Below, piece by piece: positions 1 through 12,746 of a stretch of DNA of 12,875 nt. Origin of the DNA: Candidatus Lithacetigena glycinireducens (GTDB taxonomy: Bacteria; Coprothermobacterota; HKB111); NCBI GenBank assembly GCA_018725485.1, contig QLUP01000015.1, positions 1-12,875 of the forward strand. Reading direction: 5' to 3'. Position 1 is the first letter of the stretch; every line of letters starts with the position of its first letter. A program made the position numbers and the translations under genes. Under the pieces are notes generated by a model. That model did no database searches. It was given only the letters and a program-made list of their open reading frames with translations, and was not told where the DNA came from.

Positions 1-129
1 AGTATCCTATCCTTGCCATCACCTGTCTATGAAGATAAGGCATGGCATGAGACCTATCTGCTTGGTACCGGTGAGATTCCGGTAGGCGAATCGTCCTCAG
101 AACTGTTCGGAGGACGTCTATGGGAATAA
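1..129 (+). CDS. tnpB: TnpB-related protein, C-terminal end (copy 1, cut by window edge)
   Basis: This is the last 42 codons of a TnpB-related gene whose body lies left of the window. The DNA of 1-120 matches 4561-4680 of the complete copy except for one base seen (T at 78, C at 4638, in a hairpin loop). Reading in the frame of the complete copy gives a tail containing PSPVYEDKAWHETYLLGTGE and ending FGGRLWE at the TAA of 127-129. Copy 1 has GGG at 121-123 where copy 2 has GG, so copy 1 stops here while copy 2 reads on for about 35 more codons. This tail is coded over the guide-RNA scaffold, so its exact residues may matter little. The gene is identified only through the copy in the window. 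Confidence 0.8.
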   Translation, partial: SILSLPSPVYEDKAWHETYLLGTGEIPVGESSSELFGGRLWE

Positions 130-137
130 AAGTCCGT
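61..137 (+). ncRNA. Guide-RNA (omega/reRNA) scaffold at the element right end, copy 1
   Basis: Two hairpins are visible. TACCGG (66-71) pairs with CCGGTA (79-84). CGTCCTC (92-98) pairs with GAGGACG (110-116). Both stems are kept in copy 2, and the one substitution between copies in this part falls in a loop. TnpB nucleases are known to use an RNA made from the 3' end of tnpB and the element right end, with the guide read from the flanking DNA. By that rule the copy-1 guide would start at about 138, inside the phage structural gene. Transcription and exact ends are inferred. Confidence 0.5.
109..122 (+). promoter_or_regulatory. Ribosome binding site and ATG supplied by the element end
   Basis: GGAGG (109-113) sits six bases before ATG (120-122). 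Both lie inside the transposon right end, in the 3' strand of a scaffold hairpin. The ATG opens a frame that continues without a stop into the Ig-domain gene. In copy 2 the equivalent ATG is followed at once by GAA TAA because one G is missing, so only copy 1 makes an open fusion. Whether it is used is untested. Confidence 0.5.
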
Positions 138-3050
138 GGTTTTAGGAACGGTGTGGGACCTACTATTACCAATAATCAAAAAGGTGATGATATATGGAGG
201 AGCACAAATAATGGTGTGTATGATGTTGATTTTGCAGATACCGGTGGAGGTAATTTATCACATTTTCAGACTAAAGTTTGTACTGCAGTAGCACAAGGTG
301 GAACTGTCCTACAAGACTGGACAACAGTAGTCTCAAATATAAGTGTGCCTTCTTATACTACAGACTGGTCTTTGCCTACTTCTACTTGGGAAGCTCTACA
401 ACAAGGCACTAACTATGTGTCAGTAAGAGTATATGATAATGTTGGTAATTTTAGCGTACTTATAGATGCTTTTTATGTTAAAAAAGATACTACACGGCCA
501 GTAGTTAATGTTGAACCGGATGTTTGGACGCACGAGGAAGTTGAAAGAGAAGGACAAATTGTTGCTCTTTCTGGAATTGAGAAGGTAGAGTGGTCAGTAG
601 TTAAATCTCCATCAACTTCTACTGTTATTTTTAGTGAGAAGAATCAACTTAAGACAAGAATACTTCCGGATAAAGAAGGTCAATATACAATAAGACTGAC
701 TGCTTGGAATAAAGCAGGGAGCATTGGTCGTAGTAGTTTTAAATTGAATTGGTTTCTTCCTGTTAATATAGACAAAATTACTATTGAAAAACCGTTGAAG
801 CCTGCTGAACCTATTAGAAAAATAGATAAAGTCACATTAGTAAAGATAAAAGATGAATTAGTTAGGGATGATGAGATAACTACTGGGGAAGAGGATTTAT
901 TAGAAACTATTGATGAAATATTAAAAATTATTGAAGAAGGTGAGTTATATTTAGAGGATTATTTAAAAGATACTTATATAGATTTGAATGATCTTGATGA
1001 TGATGATGATGTAGAATTTTTGCGGGAAGCACTAAGAGATATTGGTGAACCTAGAATTCAGCAATTGAATATTCCTACTCCTGAAATAGAGAGGATAACA
1101 TTTCCTGCGTATAGTGCAGCAAAGGGTGATCAAGTTAAGAGGAAATCTAGTAAGGCAAGATGCAGGGGTGATATAAATTTGTTAGAGATGAATGTTATTT
1201 CTCCGTCCCAAGAAGAGTTAAAGAAAAATCCGGATGCGAAAAGTCAGTTTAATATTTCGTTGCGGTATGATGCTAATATTGATGTTATTGTTGATATTTA
1301 CGAAAAAATGGCTGAGGATAGTTTGATTAGGTCTTCTGCTACAAAGAGGTTTTTTAAGGAGCTGGAAATAGATATTAAAGATTCGTTAAATACTGAGTAT
1401 TATTCGTTACTTAGAGAGATGAGGACGGAATTGGAAGCTATAAGAGATTTTGTTAAGGAAGAAGCTAATAATCCTGATAATTTGTTAGGTCTTCCTGCTA
1501 TATATACGGGTGTGCCACCTGTATCACAATTACCTATAGATTTACCAACTGAGATTCCAGACCAATTAAATCAACTACTTGGCAGAAGATATTTAGATCC
1601 AATTCTTAAGAAAAGGAGAGAGGCAATAAGTAAATTAATTTCTGAGAAAGAGGTGGAAATAGATGGGGTAACTGTTAAACATGATGTTTTAAGAGGAAGA
1701 ATTAATAGTGAAAAGGATAAATTAGATACGTTAACAAATGAATATAATGGAATAATAGGTAGATATAATTATTTAAGTAATGCTCAAAGCAAGAGAAAAT
1801 TAACACCACAGGAGGAAGAGGAATTTGGAAAGTTAAAGGAACGACGCTTGGCAGTGAATAATGAAATGGGAGTGACCAGGAATAATCTGGAAAGAGATAC
1901 TAGGGCGTATAGAAAGATGAAAACTACCGTTGGAAGTATCACAGCTTCTCTTATGGATAGGGCTTTTTTAGAAAAGGATCTTGCACAAAAATTAATTTGG
2001 GATATTAAAGCTACAATAATGGATTCTCTTCATAATAGTATATGTTGTTTAATTAAAACCTATATTTTGAAAGATATAAAAGATTGGTTTGTTAGGGGAA
2101 AAACTTTTGAGGAATTTCATAAATTTTTAGATGAGAATATAAGGTTTATTGATGATAATACAAGAGTTTTAAAACAAGTTCTTGTCTTGTTACAATTTTT
2201 ATATAGAGAGCAAACGTTAGATATTAAGAAGTCTTTGGATGCATTAAAAAAGATTCTTGATCCTATAGCAGAGGGAATTATGTGTAGTTTATTGATGACT
2301 TATAGATCCGTGTCCAAGAGAGTTATTGATGGTATTGTGACACCAATTAGGAGGATTGCTAAAAAGAATGAGAAATGCTTTCCTTCTCATAAAATTGTAG
2401 AGCTTATAATGGATGCTTTAAATAAATTAGACCAAAAAGTAGTAGATAATTTTTTATTATGGTTTAAGACACAACAAGTTAAGTTTAAGGTGCGGGAGAA
2501 GAAGAGCCATAGATTTTGGAAGAGAAGGCTTTGTGCTGATATGATTCATGCTATAAGGTTGATACTTGCTTATTCTGATTATTTTAAAAAGGTGATGGAA
2601 GATGCTAAAAAAATTGATTATAATGAGTTTGCAGAATATATAAATAAGTCTATAACTAATTTATTGCTACAAAGTGTACTACTTAGTACTACTTATAATA
2701 AAAATACTAGGATGGTTGAGCCAATTGTGGATATATTAAGATATTGCGAAGGAACATTGCCATCTTATACTCCTGAGAAAATAACTACCAAATTAGAAAG
2801 ACCAGCTGAGGCAGGGAAGGTTTTTATTTATGTGGTAAGTTCTTTTGGGTTTACTGGTGGTCAAAAGATAGAGATAACCGATTGTACGATAGTAGAGCAT
2901 TGTATTGTTGATAAAATTAGGGTAGAAATCGACAAGAATGACATAGTTCCTAGATCTCTTAATAAAATTTACTTGCGTGGTGATTTTGAAGGATGGGTAC
3001 TTAAAAATTCGTTTCCCGCGGGTTCGGTTGTTTCTATTGTGGGGAGTTGA
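120..3050 (+). CDS. Large Ig-domain phage structural protein, N-terminus replaced by transposon sequence
   Basis: A 976-residue frame. The first ~13 residues (MGIKVRGFRNGVG) come from the element right end, so the original start was probably upstream and has been lost. Residues ~14-127 form an Ig-like beta domain with GDDIWRSTNNGVYDVDFADT and a closing VSVRVYDNVGNFS. Residues ~128-215 look like a second, diverged Ig-like domain ending in FKLNWFLP. Then come a charged linker with an Asp run (~290-297), a long alpha-helical and coiled-coil-rich middle (~350-890, strongest ~530-620), and a small C-terminal beta domain (~900-976) ending FPAGSVVSIVGS. It lies directly upstream of the portal gene, so a virion role such as fibre, neck or portal-vertex protein is inferred from context only. 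No enzymatic motif is recognised. The last residues may come from the left end of the second element. Confidence 0.7.
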   Translation: MGIKVRGFRNGVGPTITNNQKGDDIWRSTNNGVYDVDFADTGGGNLSHFQTKVCTAVAQGGTVLQDWTTVVSNISVPSYTTDWSLPTSTWEALQQGTNYVSVRVYDNVGNFSVLIDAFYVKKDTTRPVVNVEPDVWTHEEVEREGQIVALSGIEKVEWSVVKSPSTSTVIFSEKNQLKTRILPDKEGQYTIRLTAWNKAGSIGRSSFKLNWFLPVNIDKITIEKPLKPAEPIRKIDKVTLVKIKDELVRDDEITTGEEDLLETIDEILKIIEEGELYLEDYLKDTYIDLNDLDDDDDVEFLREALRDIGEPRIQQLNIPTPEIERITFPAYSAAKGDQVKRKSSKARCRGDINLLEMNVISPSQEELKKNPDAKSQFNISLRYDANIDVIVDIYEKMAEDSLIRSSATKRFFKELEIDIKDSLNTEYYSLLREMRTELEAIRDFVKEEANNPDNLLGLPAIYTGVPPVSQLPIDLPTEIPDQLNQLLGRRYLDPILKKRREAISKLISEKEVEIDGVTVKHDVLRGRINSEKDKLDTLTNEYNGIIGRYNYLSNAQSKRKLTPQEEEEFGKLKERRLAVNNEMGVTRNNLERDTRAYRKMKTTVGSITASLMDRAFLEKDLAQKLIWDIKATIMDSLHNSICCLIKTYILKDIKDWFVRGKTFEEFHKFLDENIRFIDDNTRVLKQVLVLLQFLYREQTLDIKKSLDALKKILDPIAEGIMCSLLMTYRSVSKRVIDGIVTPIRRIAKKNEKCFPSHKIVELIMDALNKLDQKVVDNFLLWFKTQQVKFKVREKKSHRFWKRRLCADMIHAIRLILAYSDYFKKVMEDAKKIDYNEFAEYINKSITNLLLQSVLLSTTYNKNTRMVEPIVDILRYCEGTLPSYTPEKITTKLERPAEAGKVFIYVVSSFGFTGGQKIEITDCTIVEHCIVDKIRVEIDKNDIVPRSLNKIYLRGDFEGWVLKNSFPAGSVVSIVGS

Positions 3051-3056
3051 TAACTG

Positions 3057-3087
3057 TTGACAATTTTATAGTTAAGTATGCTAATAT
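3057..3087 (+). promoter_or_regulatory. Sigma-70-like promoter in the element left end
   Basis: A perfect TTGACA (3057-3062) is followed by GCTAAT (3080-3085, 17-base spacer) or TAATAT (3082-3087, 19-base spacer). It lies just inside the element and points toward the tnpA relic and tnpB, so it probably drives tnpB. It does not overlap a phage coding region. Confidence 0.5.
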
Positions 3088-3088
3088 G

Positions 3089-3124
3089 TAGCAAAGGGCT
3101 TTTCTATAGCAAAGGGCTTTTCTA
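3089..3124 (+). repeat. Two tandem 18-bp repeats in the left end
   Basis: TAGCAAAGGGCTTTTCTA occurs twice in a row (3089-3106 and 3107-3124). It lies between the predicted -10 box and the tnpA relic. Short subterminal direct repeats of this sort are plausible recombinase binding sites in IS607-type ends, or a regulatory site in the leader. The assignment is inference. Confidence 0.6.
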
Positions 3125-3142: not shown

Positions 3143-3172
3143 ATGAAGTTAAGTGTGTGGGCTACAAAATGA
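3143..3172 (+). pseudogene. tnpA: Nine-codon relic of an IS607-type serine recombinase gene
   Basis: ATG at 3143 opens MKLSVWATK and stops at TGA 3170-3172, preceded by GAGG (3134-3137). The peptide matches my recollection of how IS607 TnpA proteins begin: a MerR-like DNA-binding segment that opens MKLS.WA.KMG and continues into a TAWRW motif. Here the frame ends where the helix should continue. The stop overlaps the tnpB start as ATGA, an arrangement known for tnpA/tnpB pairs. The simplest reading is an internal deletion of nearly all of tnpA. A short leader peptide that helps tnpB translation is the alternative. The protein match is from memory, not from a search. Confidence 0.55.
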
Positions 3173-4797
3173 CTAAGATATATCGTACTTATCAATGTAG
3201 AATAGTTGTTACCCCGGAAGAAGATAAATTACTCTCTTCCTATGCTTTACTTTATAACAGAGTAGAACGAACTCTATTTGCAAAACTTCAAGCTGGTAAA
3301 GATCCAGTCTGTCTTAAAAGAGAGTTTCTACTTAAGTTTGGAATTACTGCAAGACAGTTTAATTCTATATTGCTGGAACTGAGAGGTAAGATAGCGTCTA
3401 TTAAAGAACGTAGAGTCCAACTTATCAAGGAACTCAAGCAGAAGATTGCTAGGGCAAAGAAAGTTCTCTTGAGGACTACTGATCAGACAAAGAAGCACCA
3501 CAAGCAACGAAGACTCTCTGCCCTACAAGAACGACTTAGACAACTCAAGGAAGATGATCAAGTTCGGTTGTGTTTTGGTTCTAAGAAGTTATTCCATAAG
3601 CAGTTCTATCTTAACAACTATACTTCTCACGAGGAATGGCTTAGGGATTGGCAGGCAGCTAGGAATAATCAGTTCTCTATTGTTGGCTCAAAGGGTGAGA
3701 CGGCTGGTTGCCAGAGTTGTGTAGCGGTAGTAGATGAGGAGGGAAATATAACACTAAGGCTACGACTTCCTAATTCTATTGGCAAGTATTTAACAATTAG
3801 TGGTCTTTATTTCAAACATGGTCATAACACCATAGTTTCTGCTATTGGTAGGAATCTTTCTAGTGATAAGAATGACTGGCAGCCTATTAACTACCGGTTT
3901 GTTAGAGATAGTAAAGGTTGGAGACTATTTGTATCTGTCTCTCTACCAAAAGTTACTATCAAGTCACATAGAGGTCTTGGGGTAATAGCAATTGATATAA
4001 ACGCAAACCACCTTGCTATTTGTGAGACAGATAGATATGGTAATCCAACTGCTTTCTTTTCTGTCCCTTGTCCTACTTATGGTAAGAGCTCAGAGCAAAG
4101 AAAAGCTATTATAGGAGAGGCCATCAAACAAGTAATAGCCCTTGCTGTTAGTAGATCAAAACCTATCGTTATTGAGAGACTAGACTTTCAAGCAAAGAAG
4201 TCAGCTCTTGAAAAGCAGTCTAGAAAGTTTGCTCGTATGCTATCTGCTTTTGCTTATGCACAAGTCCAGGTTCTTATTAGGGCACGAGCTTATGATGCTG
4301 GTATTGAGGTGTTTGAGGTTAACCCTGCTTGGACATCGGTTATTGGCAGTTATAAATTCAAGGATAGATATGGGATGTCAGAGCACAATTCAGCTGCTCT
4401 GGTCATTGGAAGAAGGTTTCAACGCTTCGGGGAAAAATTGCCTTCTCAGCTCTATAGCACCCTATCGCTACCTGCAAGGAATCGCGGTGGGCATGTCTGG
4501 ATCTTATGGGCAATAGTTACCAGGAAGCCAGCAGCACATGTAGTGCACAGGCAGTCGGAGAGTATCCTATCCTTGCCATCACCTGTCTATGAAGATAAGG
4601 CATGGCATGAGACCTATCTGCTTGGTACCGGTGAGATCCCGGTAGGCGAATCGTCCTCAGAACTGTTCGGAGGACGTCTATGGAATAAAAGTCAAAAGAA
4701 GGAAACGAAGTGGGTGAATTTTGACGAAAGTCAAAAGGAGGAGCGAAGCGGAGGAATTTTGACGAAAGTCCATAGTTTTAGGAACGGTGGAGGATAA
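3169..4797 (+). CDS. tnpB: TnpB-related RNA-guided nuclease-like protein
   Basis: ATG at 3169 is preferred over the GTG at 3157 because it overlaps the relic stop (ATGA) and starts a normal TnpB opening, MTKIYRTYQCRI. The protein has 542 residues: an N-terminal RNA/DNA-binding half containing FGSKKLFHKQFYL and HEEWLRDWQAARNNQF, then a RuvC fold. RuvC-I is IAIDIN (D276). RuvC-II is IVIERLDF (E336). The third motif reads GMSEHNSAALVIGRR, with H406 where classical TnpB has Asp. No Cys4 zinc ribbon is seen between motifs II and III. These traits fit the group usually labelled IS200/IS605 accessory, TnpB-related. After ~G420 the frame runs over the guide-RNA scaffold and through two mini-repeat units to a TAA at 4795-4797, so the last ~35 residues are probably an artefact of a one-base loss plus the insertion. 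Nuclease activity cannot be judged from sequence. Confidence 0.85.
   Translation: MTKIYRTYQCRIVVTPEEDKLLSSYALLYNRVERTLFAKLQAGKDPVCLKREFLLKFGITARQFNSILLELRGKIASIKERRVQLIKELKQKIARAKKVLLRTTDQTKKHHKQRRLSALQERLRQLKEDDQVRLCFGSKKLFHKQFYLNNYTSHEEWLRDWQAARNNQFSIVGSKGETAGCQSCVAVVDEEGNITLRLRLPNSIGKYLTISGLYFKHGHNTIVSAIGRNLSSDKNDWQPINYRFVRDSKGWRLFVSVSLPKVTIKSHRGLGVIAIDINANHLAICETDRYGNPTAFFSVPCPTYGKSSEQRKAIIGEAIKQVIALAVSRSKPIVIERLDFQAKKSALEKQSRKFARMLSAFAYAQVQVLIRARAYDAGIEVFEVNPAWTSVIGSYKFKDRYGMSEHNSAALVIGRRFQRFGEKLPSQLYSTLSLPARNRGGHVWILWAIVTRKPAAHVVHRQSESILSLPSPVYEDKAWHETYLLGTGEIPVGESSSELFGGRLWNKSQKKETKWVNFDESQKEERSGGILTKVHSFRNGGG
4560..4787 (+). ncRNA. Guide-RNA scaffold region of copy 2, enlarged by mini-repeats
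   Basis: The 3' part of tnpB and the right end carry the same two hairpins as copy 1 (TACCGG/CCGGTA and CGTCCTC/GAGGACG, at 4626-4676). In copy 2 a 77-bp insertion (4694-4770) sits between the hairpins and the terminal GTTTTAGGAACGG. If this is the TnpB guide RNA, the insertion adds two more stem-loops between scaffold and guide. The guide would start at about 4788 and cover the portal ribosome binding site and start. Exact 5' end unknown. Confidence 0.45.
4691..4770 (+). repeat. Two tandem units of a 38-39 bp structured mini-repeat
   Basis: Relative to copy 1, copy 2 has 77 extra bases between AAAAGTC and CATAG. They consist of a 39-bp and a 38-bp unit, both fitting AAAAG.AGGA..CGAAG.GG..GAATTTTGACGAAAGTC with gaps. 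Each unit can form a stem of GTCAAAA with TTTTGAC (4691-4697 with 4719-4725; 4730-4736 with 4757-4763). Across the unit boundary TTTTGAC-GAAA-GTCAAAA (4719-4736) forms an alternative perfect hairpin. A third, diverged unit lies at 12126-12170. Confidence 0.8.
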
Positions 4798-4801
4798 CTT
4801 G
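4789..4801 (+). promoter_or_regulatory. Portal ribosome binding site and TTG start at the element boundary
   Basis: GGAGG (4789-4793), five bases, then TTG (4799-4801). This decides the portal start over the upstream in-frame GTG at 4787, which would place the ribosome binding site inside the coding region. The site begins one or two bases after the transposon end, so the insertion spared it almost exactly. Confidence 0.65.
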
Positions 4802-6436
4802 AGTTTTTTTGAAAAACTTGTAGAAAGAGTCAAAAATTTTTTTAATTTGAACCCTCAGATGGATTCAAAGAAGCGAGGGTTAGAGTTAAGAGTTAAAGCA
4901 AAGCCAAAAGTTACTAAATTTCCTTTTAAATTTAAGAGAGATACATCCTTTGAGAGTCATACTTTCAAGTATTCCTTTGATACTATTGCAATGGCTTGTG
5001 GAAAGGATTCTCTCCTAAATAGAGCGATTAATGTTTATATAGAGTTATTCTTGAAAGAGGGGTGGTTTATTAGTAGTGACAATGAAGAGTCAAGTGCTTA
5101 TATTAATAAAAGGATTAGTCTTTTTACTGAAACTACTGGCAAGCCGTTTAAAATTTTACTTGAAGAGATGGCTTTGGATTTAATAATGTTTCATAATGTT
5201 TTTTTATTGAAAGGCAGGAGTGATATAGTAGGGTTGAGAATTAAGAAGAAGATTACTGGGGTCAACAATAAGAAACCAATTGCTGGGTATTTTAGAATAA
5301 ATCCTGAATATGTCAGTATGCAGAGGGATGTGAGTGGGCGGGTTATTAAATATGAGGTAAGAATACCAGGAGAAGATCCACAATATTTTGACGCTGAAGA
5401 TATTATTCATATGTATTGTAGAAGAGAAACGGGAGCTCTCTTTGGCACTTCATTTCTTTTATCGGTTTTGGATGATATAGAGGCATTAAGAGAGATGGAG
5501 AGTAGTGTTATAAAGCTTATTCAGAGAAACCTGTTTCCATTTATTAAGTATAAGGTTGGATTACCTCAACCTGGGTTGGAAGCATCAGAGGAAGAACTTA
5601 CTAATGTTAGGAAGAGTATAGAGGAAAACCCTGTTGATGCTGTGGTAGTAATGCCCGAGAGGCATGATATAGATGTAATAGGATCTCAAGGGGTTGCTCT
5701 GAATATAAATGACTATATTAATCATTTTCTACAAAGGATAATGTTTTCATTGGGATTTTCTGGCTCAAGGGCTACTGAGATTTCTATAAAAACTGCTACT
5801 AGCGATTTATTTGATAGAGTTAGGTCGTATCAAACTCTTTTGTCTATATTTATTAACGAGTTTATAATTAGAGAGTTATTATTAGAGGTAGGCATAGATG
5901 TAATAAATGATTCTAAAAAGTCTGTTTTTTTTAAGTTTAATGAGATAGATATAGATTTACAAATTAAAAAAGAGGTTCATTCTATTTACAAGTATGAACA
6001 TAATATTACTAGTGAAGATGAGACTAGAATTGCATTAGGATATAACATATTAGGAGATAAAGAAGAAAGGATGCACTTACATCGTGTAAAAATTCCGACT
6101 ATGTTAACAAGATATTCTGTTGGTACAAAGGATGATACAAAAGAAACCGATAATTTGTTGGTTCCTCAAAATCAACATAGTTCTGTTCCATCAGGTGAGG
6201 TTTTGATGGACATAATTAGGAAAGTTCTTTTAGAAAAGAGGGTGTTTGAGGTTCTTGATGAAAAATTAGAGGTGTTTGGCTTTTCTATTGAAAGTAGGAA
6301 AGAGGCGATGGCTTATTTAAATAGTTACTTTTGTGAAATTGAGGGTATTAGTGATTCTAATAGAGTTAAGGCTATTGGAGAATTTTATGTTAGGCGCCTG
6401 GTATCGGCTTTAGGTAGGGAAGGAGGGATAAATTGA
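4799..6436 (+). CDS. Phage portal protein
   Basis: The portal forms the ring at one capsid vertex through which DNA is packaged and the tail is joined. The 545-residue product (TTG start) has the feel of the HK97/SPP1-type portal families: a helical start, LLNRAINVYIELFLKEGWFI, a wing region with INPEYVSMQRD and VIKYEVRIPGE, the typical DIIHMYCRRETGALFGTSFL segment, and the stem/clip part around YKVGLPQPG and NPVDAVVVMPER. The position before protease, scaffold and capsid genes is the classical order. Its stop overlaps the next start (TTGA, 6433-6436), which suggests translational coupling. A terminase gene, usual just upstream, is not in the window; the large Ig gene and the transposon occupy that place. 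Class assignment is by pattern, not by search. Confidence 0.8.
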   Translation: MSFFEKLVERVKNFFNLNPQMDSKKRGLELRVKAKPKVTKFPFKFKRDTSFESHTFKYSFDTIAMACGKDSLLNRAINVYIELFLKEGWFISSDNEESSAYINKRISLFTETTGKPFKILLEEMALDLIMFHNVFLLKGRSDIVGLRIKKKITGVNNKKPIAGYFRINPEYVSMQRDVSGRVIKYEVRIPGEDPQYFDAEDIIHMYCRRETGALFGTSFLLSVLDDIEALREMESSVIKLIQRNLFPFIKYKVGLPQPGLEASEEELTNVRKSIEENPVDAVVVMPERHDIDVIGSQGVALNINDYINHFLQRIMFSLGFSGSRATEISIKTATSDLFDRVRSYQTLLSIFINEFIIRELLLEVGIDVINDSKKSVFFKFNEIDIDLQIKKEVHSIYKYEHNITSEDETRIALGYNILGDKEERMHLHRVKIPTMLTRYSVGTKDDTKETDNLLVPQNQHSSVPSGEVLMDIIRKVLLEKRVFEVLDEKLEVFGFSIESRKEAMAYLNSYFCEIEGISDSNRVKAIGEFYVRRLVSALGREGGIN

Positions 6437-7944
6437 AATTTTTTGAAGATTATGTTTTGTCTATTAAAAAGGAAAATATTTCTGCTAATGAGATGAGAGA
6501 TATCAAAGATATGTTTCTTTTGACTGAGAGTGAATCTATACATTTAGAGGTAGTCACGCGAAATGGTACTTTTTATCCACAAGAGTCGATGACAAAAATT
6601 GTTTTTAATGAGATAGGTCATCCTAGCGGGCTTGAATCGTGGACAAAACCTTATTATAAGCCAGTTCTGATAAATCACAATCAATATATTTCAGCATTAG
6701 GTAGGGTTTTTAGCACAGAGATAGGTATGGAAAATAATGTTAAATTTGTGAAGACTTATGCCTTAATCACCGATGAGGACGCCATTGCTAAGATTTTAAG
6801 TGGAATTTATTATACAGAATCCATAGGAAGTGATGTTAGTGAGGTGAGGTGTAGTATATGTTTACAAGATATAACTAAGGATTTTTGTGGTCATTTAAGA
6901 TTTCAGAAATATGAAGATGGTAAACTTTGTTACTGGATTATAAAGAAATTATGGTTTGAGGAGAAGAGTTATGTTAATATTCCTTCTGACGGTAGTGCTA
7001 AAACTGTGGGGGTACAGTTAATAAGTTCTGACGCTATGCCTAAATATATGAATTTATATGCTACTGATAAAAAGATCTCGGAATTTTATAAAATTGACAA
7101 TGGAGTGCACAAAGTTAGTGAAAATGCTTTTCTACTGAATAGTAGAGAGGCATTATTAAGAATATCTGAAAGTTTTACAAATAGGCGCTCATTTTTTTCT
7201 GGCGCTGAAGTTAAGGAGGATGGTGGTGATATGACTAGAGAAGAAAAAGCAACATTGATTAAAGAGGAAGAAGGTAAGCTCGAACCCGAACCTGCTACCA
7301 CTCCTACTACTTCTGACATTACTGCTCTAGATTCAGCTCCCGCTTCTACCCCCGATTCAACTTCTACAGACCCAATTCCTACTTCTACTCCTGATTTAAC
7401 TCCTACCTCCGATTCAACTTCTACAGACCCAATTCCTACTCCTACTCCTGATTTAACTCCCGATTTAACTCCTACAGATGAGATGAAGAAGGAATTAGAA
7501 ATGGTAAGGGAAGAATTAAATGATATTAAGAAGGAAAATGAAGATCTTAAGGGTTTGCTGATAGATATGCAGAAAAACGCTGTGGCAATGGAGTCTAAAT
7601 TACTACAAGAGAACGATAGAATTTTGAAGGAACTAGCTGATGAAAGAAAAATCTATATTGATATGATTACTGAAAATAATAAGGCGATTGTTGATTTTGG
7701 GGTTAATGTTTATAAGATGTTAGATGAAAGTAAAAATACGGAAGAAATATCTAAACAGGAAAATAGTAAGATTTTGTCTGGTATTTTGGAATTTTTGATG
7801 GAAAAATTATTGTCTATAATAAATGTTTCACAGATTGTAAATTCTGATCCTACAAAAATAGAGGAACAGCCTGCACTTACAAAAGATGAAAGGATATTAG
7901 AATCTGTGAAGTATTTTATGAAGAGAAAGGGATATAGAGAATAA
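6433..7944 (+). CDS. Prohead protease fused to scaffold domain
   Basis: TTG start with GGAGG at 6422-6426; 503 residues. The N-terminal ~220 residues look like a phage prohead (U35/gp21-type) serine protease: KPVLINHNQYISALGRV supplies the likely catalytic His (H82), and YYTESIGSDV the likely Ser (S130). Just after lies CSIC...CGH (C140, C143, C152, H154), which could bind zinc. Residues ~290-350 are a Pro/Thr/Ser/Asp-rich linker built of 19-residue repeats. Residues ~350-440 are a charged coiled coil (EMKKELEMVREELNDIKKEN) typical of scaffolds, followed by a helical, capsid-binding-like tail ending in a basic stretch (FMKRKGYRE). Protease-scaffold fusions that cut themselves out of the prohead are well known. 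An in-frame internal start at 7231 may make the scaffold alone. Catalytic residues are inferred. Confidence 0.75.
   Translation: MKFFEDYVLSIKKENISANEMRDIKDMFLLTESESIHLEVVTRNGTFYPQESMTKIVFNEIGHPSGLESWTKPYYKPVLINHNQYISALGRVFSTEIGMENNVKFVKTYALITDEDAIAKILSGIYYTESIGSDVSEVRCSICLQDITKDFCGHLRFQKYEDGKLCYWIIKKLWFEEKSYVNIPSDGSAKTVGVQLISSDAMPKYMNLYATDKKISEFYKIDNGVHKVSENAFLLNSREALLRISESFTNRRSFFSGAEVKEDGGDMTREEKATLIKEEEGKLEPEPATTPTTSDITALDSAPASTPDSTSTDPIPTSTPDLTPTSDSTSTDPIPTPTPDLTPDLTPTDEMKKELEMVREELNDIKKENEDLKGLLIDMQKNAVAMESKLLQENDRILKELADERKIYIDMITENNKAIVDFGVNVYKMLDESKNTEEISKQENSKILSGILEFLMEKLLSIINVSQIVNSDPTKIEEQPALTKDERILESVKYFMKRKGYRE
7231..7944 (+). CDS. Putative separately initiated scaffold protein nested in the protease gene
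   Basis: An in-frame ATG at 7231 (codon 267 of the protease gene) follows GGAGG at 7215-7219 with an 11-base gap, somewhat long, and lies exactly between the protease domain and the Pro/Thr-rich linker. It would give a 237-residue protein (MTREEKATLI...) made of linker plus coiled-coil scaffold. Lambda makes its scaffold Nu3 in this way from inside protease gene C, which is the model for this call. The alternative is that the GGAGG is chance in a Lys-Glu-Asp-rich segment. Confidence 0.45.
   Translation: MTREEKATLIKEEEGKLEPEPATTPTTSDITALDSAPASTPDSTSTDPIPTSTPDLTPTSDSTSTDPIPTPTPDLTPDLTPTDEMKKELEMVREELNDIKKENEDLKGLLIDMQKNAVAMESKLLQENDRILKELADERKIYIDMITENNKAIVDFGVNVYKMLDESKNTEEISKQENSKILSGILEFLMEKLLSIINVSQIVNSDPTKIEEQPALTKDERILESVKYFMKRKGYRE
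7354..7479 (+). repeat. 57-bp tandem coding repeat (Pro/Thr-rich linker)
   Basis: A 57-bp unit starting GATTCAACTTCTACAGACCC occurs at 7354 and again at 7411, followed by partial units of GATTTAACTCC. It encodes DSTSTDPIPTSTPDLTPTS-like repeats of 19 residues. The near-identical DNA of the two units points to recent slippage or unequal recombination. The linker would be flexible, and its length may vary among relatives. Confidence 0.9.
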
Positions 7945-7962
7945 AAAAAGGAGGGAACGTAT

Positions 7963-9144
7963 ATGCCATTATTTCCAGGTAGAAGTACGGCCACAAAAGA
8001 AAGAATAAGAAGCACTAACTCCAGGTTAGTTGTTTCCGAAGGAACGATATGTAGTGAGGTAATGCAAGTTGACCCGAATTTACCCAAAGCTTTTGATGAT
8101 TTTCTTGGTCCAGAATTTTTGCTTCCAAATAAAGGTGAGGTAAAAATTGGAAAGGGAAGAATAGTAGCACCTATGGCTCCGGGGATGATTGCTGGTAAGC
8201 AGACTCCTCCAAGACTTACACTTTGCAACAATGGAACTGCTAATGGGGCTTATACTCCTCAGCCAGCTAATTTTCCTTGTGGTATTGCTCCCTATCATTA
8301 TTATAGGGATGTTGCGGATAAATTTGGTGGAGGTGCGGTTGGCTTTTTAACTAGAGCTTTAATTGAGGTGCCTTGTGTAGTAAATGAAGCTGCTGCCGCA
8401 AATATTGGTACTGGTGTAGCATACGGTAGTCTTGTTGAAGGGGATTTTGTGAGAAGTGATACTAGAGGAAGATTTGTTGTTGCTAGTCCTAGTGATATTG
8501 CTGAGGGTAGAAGAGTAGTTGGAAGAGTAATTGCTATGATAACTTCTGTTCCTCCACTTGGATGGTTGGAGTGGGTTATGTTGGGCAGAGATATACTTAA
8601 GGAAGAAGGAGTGAGAGATATTAATTTTCCAACACTAAGGGAAAGTACATATAGTCCTCAAATGCAAGGAAAGCCTTTCCCTTATGATCCTACCTATGCG
8701 TGGCCTATTCATAGAGATGCAAGGGGGATAGAATTTCTTACTGATGGTAGTGTTTTTGGAGATATTGCTTATACTAACGAAATAGTTTTAAATGTTGATG
8801 GTTCTGTATACGCAAATCCAAATCCAGTGCCAGCTGTTGGTACGCGAGTAAGGTTATATGTAAGAAATGCGCCTATTTCTACAGTGGATAGAACTGGAGC
8901 AGCAAGAAGTCCTATAATTAGGATTGAGATTGGCGCAGGAGTGGTATGGACTGATATAACACCTGATTGTTCAGTTGATTATCTAACTGGAGAAATAATT
9001 TGGACAGTTGCTGCTGCTAGACGGGGTGCAGTAGCTGATGCTATTAGAGCAACTTATTTCAGAGGACCTGGTATTCCTGGTATTCCTAGAAACTGGAATG
9101 AGGATAGAGCTCTTGGCGCTGTAAGAATTTGGATGTTAATATAG
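7963..9144 (+). CDS. Putative capsid-associated (decoration or head structural) protein
   Basis: A 393-residue protein with a strong ribosome binding site (GGAGG 7950-7954) and ATG. It is rich in Gly, Pro, Val and aromatic residues with no coiled coil, signal peptide or membrane segment. A beta-rich middle section reads YGSLVEGDFVRSDTRGRFVV and GRRVVGRVIAMI, resembling the small beta-barrel folds of capsid decoration proteins. The C-terminal ~120 residues (VLNVDGSVYANPNPVPAVGT, CSVDYLTGEIIW) look like a second beta domain seen in virion proteins. I do not recognise the family. The place between scaffold and major capsid protein is the usual site of head decoration genes, and the function is inferred from that alone. 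A second capsid subunit is possible. Confidence 0.55.
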   Translation: MPLFPGRSTATKERIRSTNSRLVVSEGTICSEVMQVDPNLPKAFDDFLGPEFLLPNKGEVKIGKGRIVAPMAPGMIAGKQTPPRLTLCNNGTANGAYTPQPANFPCGIAPYHYYRDVADKFGGGAVGFLTRALIEVPCVVNEAAAANIGTGVAYGSLVEGDFVRSDTRGRFVVASPSDIAEGRRVVGRVIAMITSVPPLGWLEWVMLGRDILKEEGVRDINFPTLRESTYSPQMQGKPFPYDPTYAWPIHRDARGIEFLTDGSVFGDIAYTNEIVLNVDGSVYANPNPVPAVGTRVRLYVRNAPISTVDRTGAARSPIIRIEIGAGVVWTDITPDCSVDYLTGEIIWTVAAARRGAVADAIRATYFRGPGIPGIPRNWNEDRALGAVRIWMLI

Positions 9145-10314: not shown

Positions 10315-10608
10315 ATGATCGAAAGAGAAATAGAAATAGAAAAAGAAGTAGAAAAGGAAATAGAGGTAAAGGAAATATCTGAAGTATCTGAAGAAGTGGA
10401 GAATTCAGAGAAAGAAGTAGAGAATTCGGAGTTGGTTGTTAGCTTGGCGGGAAGAGAGTTGAGCTATTTTGATGCTCAAACTGGGGTTAATCTTTTCCTG
10501 AATACGCCAATTGCAAGGATTGATAAAGGTCAATTCGCCGGAAAACTCGATGGGATTAAGGCAGCAGTGGATGCCGGGATATTGAAGATAGTAGCAGGCT
10601 CCCTGTAG
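10315..10608 (+). CDS. Small acidic protein of unknown function
   Basis: 97 residues with GGAGG (10304-10308) six bases before ATG. Residues 1-~40 are almost only Glu, Lys, Ile and Val (EREIEIEKEVEKEIEVKE), with a direct repeat EVENSE/EVENSE. This part should be a charged helix or disordered tail. Residues ~41-97 form a compact domain, SLAGRELSYFDAQTGVNLFL ... GKLDGIKAAVDAGILKIVAG. I do not recognise the family. Position between capsid and neck genes suggests a head-completion or minor head protein. Its TAG stop (10606-10608) is in the same frame as the following Ig/neck gene, with only 12 codons between stop and next ATG. Confidence 0.75.
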   Translation: MIEREIEIEKEVEKEIEVKEISEVSEEVENSEKEVENSELVVSLAGRELSYFDAQTGVNLFLNTPIARIDKGQFAGKLDGIKAAVDAGILKIVAGSL

Positions 10609-10627
10609 AAATGCCAATTCGAAACAA
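10605..10627 (+). repeat. 23-bp repeat shared with the right-edge element (copy A)
   Basis: The sequence from GTAGAAATG to CGAAACAA is identical at 10605-10627 and 12724-12746, with weaker likeness for about 20 bases more. Here it covers the stop codon of the small acidic gene and the leader of the neck gene. At 12724 it covers the start of the element gene. A 23-bp chance match in this window is very unlikely. Confidence 0.8.
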
Positions 10628-10644
10628 CAGATAAATGGAAACAA

Positions 10645-12138
10645 ATGCTGCAACAAAAAGTTCTCTTTGTAAAAGGAGTTTCCCCGCAACGGGAAGAGAC
10701 TAATGTTCCATTAGATAAAGTAATAGAGATTTTCTTTTCTGTTCCTCTTGATGTTTCATCTTTATCTCCAAAAACTATTATAGTAGCGGAGAATAATTTA
10801 CGACCGATTACGGGTAGTTTAAAATACTTTGCTACAGATTTTTCAGTAAAATTCACTCCAGACAGCAATCTTCTCCCGGAGACATCTTACCAGGTAACTA
10901 TAGTAGGCAAAAATGAAGGGGTTAGAGATGCATCTAGGAATTTATTTCTGCCAGCTAATTACAATTTTAGTTTTAGAACTGGACGAGTTTTTTTACTTGA
11001 ACCAAGTCTTTTATCTCCCGATGATCAATCTTCCCTTACTACAACCCCTACCTTTAGGTGGAGTATTGTGCCTGATGCTTTTTATCATATTCAAGTTAGT
11101 AATAGTAATACTTTTTCTCCTATTGTTTGGCCATTAGATAATATTGATCCACAAGGTAATTTTATTACTCCCGATATAAGCTTTGAACCTGGTATGTATT
11201 ATTGGAGAGTGAGGGCAGTCAAGGGTGGTGTTTTATCTAAATGGTCGCAAACATATAGATTCAGAATTATAGATGGGGATGTGAGAGTAGATGCTGGTGT
11301 TGAAAGACAATTTAGGGTTGAGAAAACTATTCCTTTTGATGGAGAAATGGATGTAAGCACTAATTTGAGTAGTTTAAAGATATTTTTTAGCGAGGATGTA
11401 AATAGTAATACTGTAGGGGCAAGTAATATTAATGTTGTGGGATTGCCATTTGATAAAGATATGTCAAAAAAAAGATTGTCTGTGGGTATTTCTGGAGCAA
11501 TTGGAAGTGGGATGTTATCAGAATATTATCTTTATCCTGGCTCTGGTTTTGTAAAAGATTATGAATATGTGGTAAAAGTGTTAAGTAATTCTGTTATGAA
11601 TATTTCAGGACATACGCTTTTGTCTGATTATATTTTTAGATTTTATACTCCACTGACTTATTATTATGTTGATAAGTCTCAAATTAGACTTGCTGTTGGA
11701 GATATTATAAAGGATAAGACAGATTTAGAAATAGATAGGGTAATTTATGAGGTTAGTAAAGATGCTTATTTGATGGCAGATGAACAAACAAAAAGAAATT
11801 TGGATAGTGGTGTAATATCAAAATATGTTAAGTGTTTTGTAAAGTGGGAAACGGTTTATAGAATATTAAATGGGAAGTTGATGGAAGTAATGTTGTCTAC
11901 TTCTATAACGCTTGGTGATTTTTCTGTTAGACAATCTTCCCCGGATATTGGTTTGATAAGATTTATAGTAGACAAAGCGAAAAAGGATGCTGATGAATGT
12001 GCAGAAAAGTTTAGTGATGAGCAGTTGGGTACTTACGTAAGAAAAATAGAGATGGCAATTAGGGACATCAATTACCCTTCTCTGAAAAAGAGGGAGCTTA
12101 TAAAGAATACAAGAACAGAAGGAAAGTTAAAAGGATGA
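10645..12138 (+). CDS. Ig-decorated head-tail adaptor (neck)-like protein
   Basis: 497 residues. Residues ~5-112 are an SbsA-type bacterial Ig-like domain (VSPQREETNVPLDKVIEIFF, ending NYNFSFRTG). Residues ~113-208 are FN3-like (LSPDDQSSLTTTPTFRWSIV, YYWRVRAVKGG). Residues ~218-340 are a second SbsA-type domain starting KTIPFDGEMDV. The C-terminal ~150 residues (RLAVGDIIKDKTDLEIDRVI ... LGDFSV ... KAKKDADECAEKF) are helical and resemble small head-tail connector proteins, which fits the place after the capsid gene. So an adaptor seems to carry an N-terminal, probably surface-exposed, Ig array. The start is doubtful: ATG 10645 has only a weak GGA upstream, unlike its neighbours, but the first Ig strand begins at once after it. 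The stop falls within a mini-repeat unit, so the last residues may be altered. Confidence 0.65.
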   Translation: MLQQKVLFVKGVSPQREETNVPLDKVIEIFFSVPLDVSSLSPKTIIVAENNLRPITGSLKYFATDFSVKFTPDSNLLPETSYQVTIVGKNEGVRDASRNLFLPANYNFSFRTGRVFLLEPSLLSPDDQSSLTTTPTFRWSIVPDAFYHIQVSNSNTFSPIVWPLDNIDPQGNFITPDISFEPGMYYWRVRAVKGGVLSKWSQTYRFRIIDGDVRVDAGVERQFRVEKTIPFDGEMDVSTNLSSLKIFFSEDVNSNTVGASNINVVGLPFDKDMSKKRLSVGISGAIGSGMLSEYYLYPGSGFVKDYEYVVKVLSNSVMNISGHTLLSDYIFRFYTPLTYYYVDKSQIRLAVGDIIKDKTDLEIDRVIYEVSKDAYLMADEQTKRNLDSGVISKYVKCFVKWETVYRILNGKLMEVMLSTSITLGDFSVRQSSPDIGLIRFIVDKAKKDADECAEKFSDEQLGTYVRKIEMAIRDINYPSLKKRELIKNTRTEGKLKG

Positions 12139-12176
12139 GCGTTAGCGAGGGAATTTTAACGAAAATCAAAAGGAGG
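12126..12176 (+). repeat. Diverged single mini-repeat unit at the neck-gene end
   Basis: The unit AAAAGGATGAGCG...GAATTTTAACGAAAATC matches those at 4691-4770. Its outer stem is GTTAAAA (12126-12132) with TTTTAAC (12154-12160), where the element copies have GTCAAAA with TTTTGAC: both sides changed together (C-G to T-A). A partial next unit AAAAGGAGG follows. The TGA of the neck gene lies inside it. Confidence 0.75.
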
Positions 12177-12234
12177 GGAATGAGGATAAGTTGCTTTTCT
12201 ATTGTAAGTAGACAAATGGAGGTGGCAATTTTTT

Positions 12235-12560: not shown

Positions 12561-12681
12561 ATGCTTAAATTGAGTGACGTTCGAAAATTTATCAATAAAA
12601 AAGACCCTCTGATTGTAGTGTCTGACCTACACATAGGGAGCCCCTACTTAAAGCACAAGGTTGAATTTATCAACTTCCTTA
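12561..12681 (+). pseudogene. Metallophosphoesterase, first ~40 codons, broken by an insertion
   Basis: ATG at 12561, nine bases after the preceding stop. The peptide MLKLSDVRKFINKKDPLIVV then SDLHIGSPYLKHKVEFINFL matches the start of calcineurin-like phosphoesterases, where D-x-H (here SDLHIG) supplies two metal ligands. The next motif (GD.xD) should follow within ~20 residues. Instead, after FLN the DNA changes into the hairpin CTACCCC...GGGG, and the chimeric frame stops at 12753-12755. The gene is therefore interrupted, and the remainder should lie right of the element, outside the window. It might have processed nucleotides or nucleic-acid ends for the phage. Confidence 0.6.
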
Positions 12682-12692
12682 ATTGTCAACTA

Positions 12693-12713
12693 CCCCTCCC
12701 TAAAAGGAAGGGG
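12693..12713 (+). ncRNA. Hairpin at the element left end, possible guide-RNA stem
   Basis: CCCCT and AGGGG close the hairpin; inside, CC pairs with GG beyond a C-A mismatch, and CTAAAAGG forms the top with a five-base loop. It is placed ahead of the AAGGAG and ATG of the next gene, as expected for a structured leader RNA. It is not followed by a T-run, so it is not a standard terminator. Confidence 0.45.
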
Positions 12714-12723
12714 CTTGTAAGGA

Positions 12724-12746
12724 GTAGAAATGCCAATTCGAAACAA
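12724..12746 (+). repeat. 23-bp repeat shared with 10605-10627 (copy B)
   Basis: Identical 23 bases starting GTAGAAATGCC. Here they overlap the ATG (12730) of the element gene and are joined upstream to AAGGAG, so this copy is the likely functional one and 10605-10627 the derived one. Confidence 0.8.

Follow-up and report, generated by a model that had tools for sequence, protein, structure and literature searches.

Two right ends of one tnpB element lie on the same contig and differ by a block of extra bases: did a small repeat land in the guide-RNA gene of the longer copy, or did the shorter copy lose it, and can the enlarged RNA still serve as a guide? The window, meaning the whole stretch of DNA that was analysed, is the complete contig C57 (12,875 bases); the draft genome to which it belongs is a bin of 1.24 Mb, 204 contigs and 83% completeness. 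The contig carries phage head genes: a portal (PHROG 9232, E 2e-45), a head protease-like gene and a major head protein. The nearest named relatives of the portal are in Moorella phage MTATph1 (177 kb) and in a 217-kb Bacillus phage; at 32–38% only, its relatives are too distant for a comparison of occupied and empty sites, and a search made for the same comparison with the capsid protein found no close phage relatives. The two copies of the element are placed as follows.

3157..4797, + strand: tnpB-like open reading frame of the IS607-type element, copy 2 (NCBIfam TIGR01766; homology to the related element L033).

1..153, + strand: right end of copy 1 of the element, without the insert (stem 118–123/134–139; pseudoknot halves 102–108/146–152).

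The TnpB frame scores 44 bits against NCBIfam TIGR01766, above the cut-off of 32, and falls below the cut-off of NF040570. D280 and E340 are conserved; beyond the RuvC core, which extends to about residue 430, the frame overlaps the omega-RNA and the insert. The best relative is a groundwater Nitrospirae element (L033, 60% identity); others share 41–48%, and those on viral contigs 38–42%. Directly upstream of tnpB in relatives L033 and L106 lies a 190-aa serine recombinase (PF00239, IS607 TnpA type). No such tnpA was found with the window copy or in the rest of the bin. Because its relatives bear the serine recombinase that marks IS607, the window element is classed as an IS607-type tnpB element without tnpA; assignment to IS200/IS605, considered first, was dropped on the same ground. 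Barring the lost tnpA and a clade-wide histidine at the third RuvC position, it is an ordinary member of the type.

That histidine (RuvC-III; SEHNSAAL, SVHQGAAL; window 4387–4425, residues ~411–423) is common to the window copy, L033–L043 and L106–L108, a clade that keeps the first RuvC aspartate and the glutamate. Thermus relatives L030, L031 and L069 have aspartate at the same position (SKDVAAAY); in one of these, Thermus phage Lalka8 (L030, PQ109075.1), the region 904–3074 has a TnpB-like gene with an annotated CRISPR-like repeat array less than about 20 nt behind it. The histidine raises doubt about RNA-guided nuclease activity: proteins that bear it are possibly guide-RNA proteins with an altered catalytic site, which would bind rather than cut. 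A tandem 18-mer, GCAAAGGGCTTTTCTATA, precedes tnpB at window 3105–3124, close to where the left end of the element is presumed to lie.

The genome holds only two right ends of this element, both on C57 (1–153 and 4561–4790). They are 97% identical over 130 nt (1–130 against 4561–4690), both run on to TTTTAGGAACGGTG (140–155 and 4776–4791), and they are alike up to GGTG, where they diverge. In both copies this terminal sequence also offers an RBS-like AGGA and a GTG start to the adjoining gene, the two neighbours being a 976-aa ORF and the portal gene. The left part of copy 1 falls off the contig, exactly the first 77 nt of which agree with copy 2 without a mismatch; such a start points to a break in the assembly graph (k=77), so copy 1 may be a full element.

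What distinguishes copy 2 is exactly 77 extra bases at 4690–4766. Copy 1 has CTATGGGAATAAAAGTCCGTGGTTTTAGGAACGGTG here; copy 2 has CTATGGAATAAA and AGTCCATAGTTTTAGGAACGGTG with the 77 nt between them. The preliminary description had given the position and length of the extra bases correctly, as well as their division into two units:

4690..4728, + strand: mini-element unit 1, 39 nt, AGTCAAAAGAAGGAAACGAAGTGGGTGAATTTTGACGAA (61.9 bits with a structure-aware model; alignment).

4729..4766, + strand: mini-element unit 2, 38 nt, AGTCAAAAGGAGGAGCGAAGCGGAGGAATTTTGACGAA, in tandem with unit 1 (61.0 bits with the same model; alignment).

Both units begin AGTCAAAAG and end TTTTGACGAA, and AAAAGTC/GAAAGTC leaves their boundaries uncertain by a few bases.

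To place the units in the RNA, the right ends of related elements were searched for hairpins with a loop complementary to sequence further downstream. The search recovered the same pseudoknot architecture in the window copies and eight relatives, to which L107 was added by inspection. Ten sequences, ranging from this element to Streptomyces, were aligned with the hairpin between the pseudoknot halves cut out. In the pseudoknot and stem 1, 94.3% of cells are paired and 7 of 14 pairs change on both sides; this covariation score was reached in none of 500 shuffles, and slid registers drop to 30–56% paired. The right-end RNA has a conserved, covarying, guide-proximal pseudoknot. A search of the window against Rfam gave no family at gathering score and no match to RAGATH-18. 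The parts of the RNA in copy 2 are these.

4652..4676, + strand: omega-RNA stem 1 (CGTCCTC/GAGGACG, 7 bp), with the pseudoknot 5′ half ACTGTTC in its loop at 4662–4668 (covariation).

4678..4775, + strand: apical hairpin between the pseudoknot halves, stem CTATGG 4678–4683 / CCATAG 4770–4775, expanded by the insert.

4782..4788, + strand: pseudoknot 3′ half GAACGGT; the end of the element (about 4789) and the putative guide come next.

The insert lies inside the apical loop of the last scaffold hairpin. The preliminary description had placed new stem-loops directly before the guide, between scaffold and RNA end; instead they sit at the tip of a hairpin whose stem is kept in both copies (CTATGG/CCATAG in copy 2, CTATGG/CCGTGG in copy 1). 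The predicted fold of 4677–4776 (−24.3 kcal/mol, z −5.2) has the closing stem CTATGG/CCATAG, with the two units stacked above it into a single long extension. The hairpin that separates the pseudoknot halves is 105 nt long in copy 2, as against 29 nt in copy 1 and 33–65 nt in nine relatives.

A hairpin is present between the halves in all nine related omega-RNAs; its sequences are unrelated, and the repeat is in none of them. Since all nine lack it, copy 2 is, on this comparison, the derived, inserted state. The units are found in one of the two element copies in the genome and in 0/9 relatives, and so are not a feature of most copies, as they would be had copy 1 arisen by deletion; the earlier view that a small non-coding repeat landed in a guide-RNA scaffold fits these counts. 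Loss of the units from copy 1, by recombination between flanking AAAGTC sequences, could have been precise, given AAAAGTC and GAAAGTC on either side. It is nevertheless very unlikely: the relatives have a plain short hairpin, and the same units recur at unrelated sites on another contig, C79. Extremely unlikely, too, is an artefact of assembly or binning in which mis-assembly of phage repeats misplaced the 77 nt in the element. The assembly is a draft, and the contig starts inside the element with 77 identical nt, as for a k=77 graph break; yet both flanks of the insert are unique element sequence, and no other unit copy in the genome is identical to either inserted unit, so another locus was not their source. 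A search of open-access papers turned up no description of an insertion of this kind.

The inserted state of copy 2 bears on the protein as well. The preliminary description had the insertion extend the TnpB frame, and the frame is indeed longer; the insert length does not suffice for this, however. Overlap of the tnpB frame with the RNA is seen in seven relatives too, where the stop codon lies 24 to 125 nt short of the final pseudoknot half; in copy 1 the frame would end at a TAA inside the apical loop. Two changes combine to carry the frame of copy 2 further: a 1-nt difference (GGG to GG) and the 77-base (3n+2) insert. The extra 30-odd C-terminal residues would be a by-product, and are probably without consequence, because the C-terminal domain of ISDra2 TnpB is disordered and unnecessary for cleavage (PMC10097598).

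Is the guide RNA of copy 2 still usable? Probably it is, the insertion being tolerated, if one may judge from omega-RNAs outside this clade, on which the argument for a 77-nt extension draws: ISDra2 and IS607 RNAs have a disordered, removable region or loops. In the ISDra2 omega-RNA the stem at the comparable position is disordered, and its replacement by GAAA raised activity (PMC10097598); in the IS607 reRNA disordered loops can be deleted without effect, and flexible loops tolerate change in the solved IS607-type complex (PMC11061315). The insert would lengthen the tip of a peripheral hairpin and spare the pseudoknot, stem 1 and the guide junction, so that guide function would probably be left largely unchanged. 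The earlier suggestion that the repeat could destroy guide function is unsupported, given that the lengthened tip is variable in every relative and that analogous omega-RNA regions are removable (PMC10097598, PMC11061315).

We regard it as unlikely that the insertion inactivates or weakens the guide RNA – through inserted stems that compete with scaffold folding, cuts by host RNase, or a clash with the protein – and that copy 2 is decaying. Decay would agree with the loss of tnpA, with a 105-nt hairpin that exceeds those of copy 1 and all relatives (29–65 nt) and with histidine in place of aspartate at RuvC-III. Against this, the CTATGG/CCATAG stem, all of whose pairs in copy 2 are Watson–Crick, is retained in the minimum-energy fold, and the histidine is no sign of decay because it is common to the whole clade, elements with an intact recombinase gene included. 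Copy 2 provides a natural experiment on how far the omega-RNA scaffold can grow between the pseudoknot halves.

Two known systems offer a comparison. As in ISFba1 TnpB with its RAGATH-18-derived RNA (IS607; PMC11061315), the gene for a RuvC-fold TnpB overlaps a right-end pseudoknot RNA, and as in the IS607 type (PMC11061315) a serine recombinase lies upstream, here in the relatives. The window differs from the ISFba1 type in having no RAGATH-18 match, no tnpA, histidine rather than aspartate at RuvC-III, and the unit pair in the apical loop. The guide-proximal pseudoknot is shared with the ISDra2 omega-RNA (IS200/IS605; PMC10097598, PMC8612924), which has a flexible, removable stem, 3b, between the halves. 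ISDra2 has a Y1 transposase, whereas relatives of the present element have a serine recombinase. We know of no natural repeat insertion in stem 3b.

The larger finding, absent from the preliminary description, is the self-nesting mobile family behind the inserted units. These are ~39-nt palindromes confined to C57 and C79, two of the 204 contigs. The structure-aware model, built from nine intact copies, gives nine matches (60–64 bits, far above chance) in the whole 1.24-Mb genome, three on C57 and six on C79, and these nine are the training copies themselves. An exact pattern has eight hits, its reversed control none, and 289 other genomes none. The remaining copy in the window is this:

12125..12163, + strand: third window unit, at the end of ORF 10645–12138 (60.1 bits; arm variant GTTAAAA/TTTTAAC).

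Exact-pattern searches found nothing in IMG/VR or in 84,980 genomes (GTDB contigs); BLAST and pattern searches against further sets of 59 and 289 genomes were likewise negative, as was the model in 29 related element and phage loci. The second contig, C79, carries phage-like auxiliary genes (a methyltransferase, a COOH-NH2 ligase and an R2K ATP-grasp); two of its proteins had no match among phages, and a link between C79 and C57 through a common phage relative was not obtained.

A unit has a 7-bp stem and an interior of ~21 nt, and begins AGTY and ends CGAA (AGTY...RACGAA), the right end CGAA being seen in 10 of 13 units. To the left, units are flanked by AA in 12/13 cases and by GAA in 9/13, against background rates near 0.12 and 0.03, in a count that treats nested units as independent though their targets are related; among targets that are not themselves units, AA is present in six of seven. 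The trinucleotides to left and right differ in 5 of 13 units and the bases shared at junctions vary from 2 to 6. The disagreement in these five means that no duplication is constant in length, and a target duplication of 3 to 6 bases was rejected, flanks matching inconsistently.

Nests on C79 were parsed by bracket-matching of arms. At 4487–4602 the left arms GTC, GTT and GTC are followed by the right arms GAC, AAC and GAC, which pair last-in-first-out over three levels (C–G, T–A, C–G), with stem bases covarying at each level. Removal of the 77-nt child from the outer unit leaves a 37-mer that matches the intact units at C79:10283 and 5732 base for base; with six bases (AACGAA) in common at the junction, the cut can be made at any of seven adjacent positions to the same effect. 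A nest of one unit within another lies at C79 5608–5688, and an incomplete nest at C79 10254. In two cases the child entered its parent through the GAA loop at the tip, CGAA^GYG, parent tips pairing as AC-GAA-GT or GC-GAA-GC. What these phage-like contigs document is a mobile family of very short palindromes, nested in one another's loops and with clear junctions. Its nesting and target preference, like the inserted state and location of the pair in copy 2, are read directly from the letters of the two contigs.

Need the units be mobile at all? They might be 5′-leader or translation-coupling hairpins of phage operons, kept by selection and multiplied by unequal recombination, not transposition. 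Their left arm, GTCAAAAGGAGG, is a ribosome-binding site; several arrays end AAAAGGAGG a few bases before a start codon (C79:4624–4642 and 10354–10372; window 12165–12181), and some units provide the stop codon of the preceding gene. Recombination alone, however, leaves unexplained the exact nesting with the parent restored on excision, the insertion in the omega-RNA loop, and a minus-strand unit at C79:11820–11858 that lengthens an ATP-grasp gene, close to its start, by 13 codons in frame. We therefore think such an origin improbable.

Transposition, which we favour, would make the units non-autonomous mobile DNA, moved in trans by an enzyme that acts, perhaps on single strands, on hairpins with (G)AA targets; that the units insert into each other's loops and so form nested palindromes is seen in the sequence itself. 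The junctions, with no consistent duplication, insertion 3′ of a short target and hairpin ends, would fit the single-strand pattern of HuH/Y1 enzymes. A dedicated transposase for the units was not found; the only Y1 transposases of the bin are on C173 and C148, neither of which bears units, and the one on C173 adjoins an ordinary tnpB. With good though not full confidence, we propose that copy 2 of the tnpA-less IS607-type element bears in its omega-RNA loop a pair of mini-elements from a non-autonomous, self-nesting, trans-mobilized family, and that guide function is probably largely unchanged. A broader proposition is put forward only tentatively, and we doubt it ourselves: that the phage bears minimal mobile palindromes (39 nt), an independent class, which target (G)AA in exposed hairpin loops, prefer structured RNA genes and their own copies, and build up nested hairpins while sparing the fold of the host RNA. 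If true, the omega-RNA insertion would be one natural case of an RNA-fold-sparing transposon.

In size and setting the units resemble REP/REPIN and other short palindromic repeats. With REPs and REPINs mobilized by RAYT (PMC3116915, PMC3733652) they share their form as palindromes in the range of 20–40 nt that are dispersed, clustered, mostly intergenic and sometimes in genes. They differ in having no GTAG or unpaired CGTC tag and no linked RAYT, in being self-nested and on phage-like contigs, and in geometry, REPs combining a stem of 8–9 bp with a loop of 4–5 nt. Membership of the GTAG superfamily of REP/REPIN was rejected, as no GTAG occurs in the unit and Y1 genes are found only on the unit-free C173 and C148. 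REPs of the CGTC superfamily have an unpaired CGTC tag, an 8–9-bp stem, a 4–5-nt loop and a CCA-like tail (PMC3733652); this candidate was also rejected, for although the reverse strand of the unit reads TTCGTCAAAA, the GTC is within the 7-bp stem and the interior is ~21 nt. A MITE with terminal inverted repeats and target-site duplication was set aside because there is no duplication of constant length, flanks differing in 5/13 units. Rickettsia palindromic elements (RPE) and other bacterial MITEs are palindromic units that can sit in frame inside genes, RPE units being much longer than 39 nt; the present units differ from these in self-nesting and in lacking a terminal inverted repeat plus duplication. 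Judged by sequence, they are short palindromic (REP/MITE-like) mobile DNA of a new variant.

Several other repeats were noted on the two contigs. C79 (L011) has a run of about ten tandem paralogous small genes (4642–8471, 11334–11798 and 12571–12728; SKYYTLEEVRxIRxxISxLGER...) with variable heptad-like repeats in the middle; the two members scanned matched no Pfam family. Two more dispersed palindromes, at 2408–2429 / 5710–5731 and 4463–4486 / 5779–5802 of the same contig, adjoin the mini-element arrays: TAAGTCATGTCGACATGACTTA, and one with TTGTGCAGAATTCTTCACAA. In the window, an identical 23-mer, GTAGAAATGCCAATTCGAAACAA, is present at two gene starts (10605–10627 and 12724–12746).
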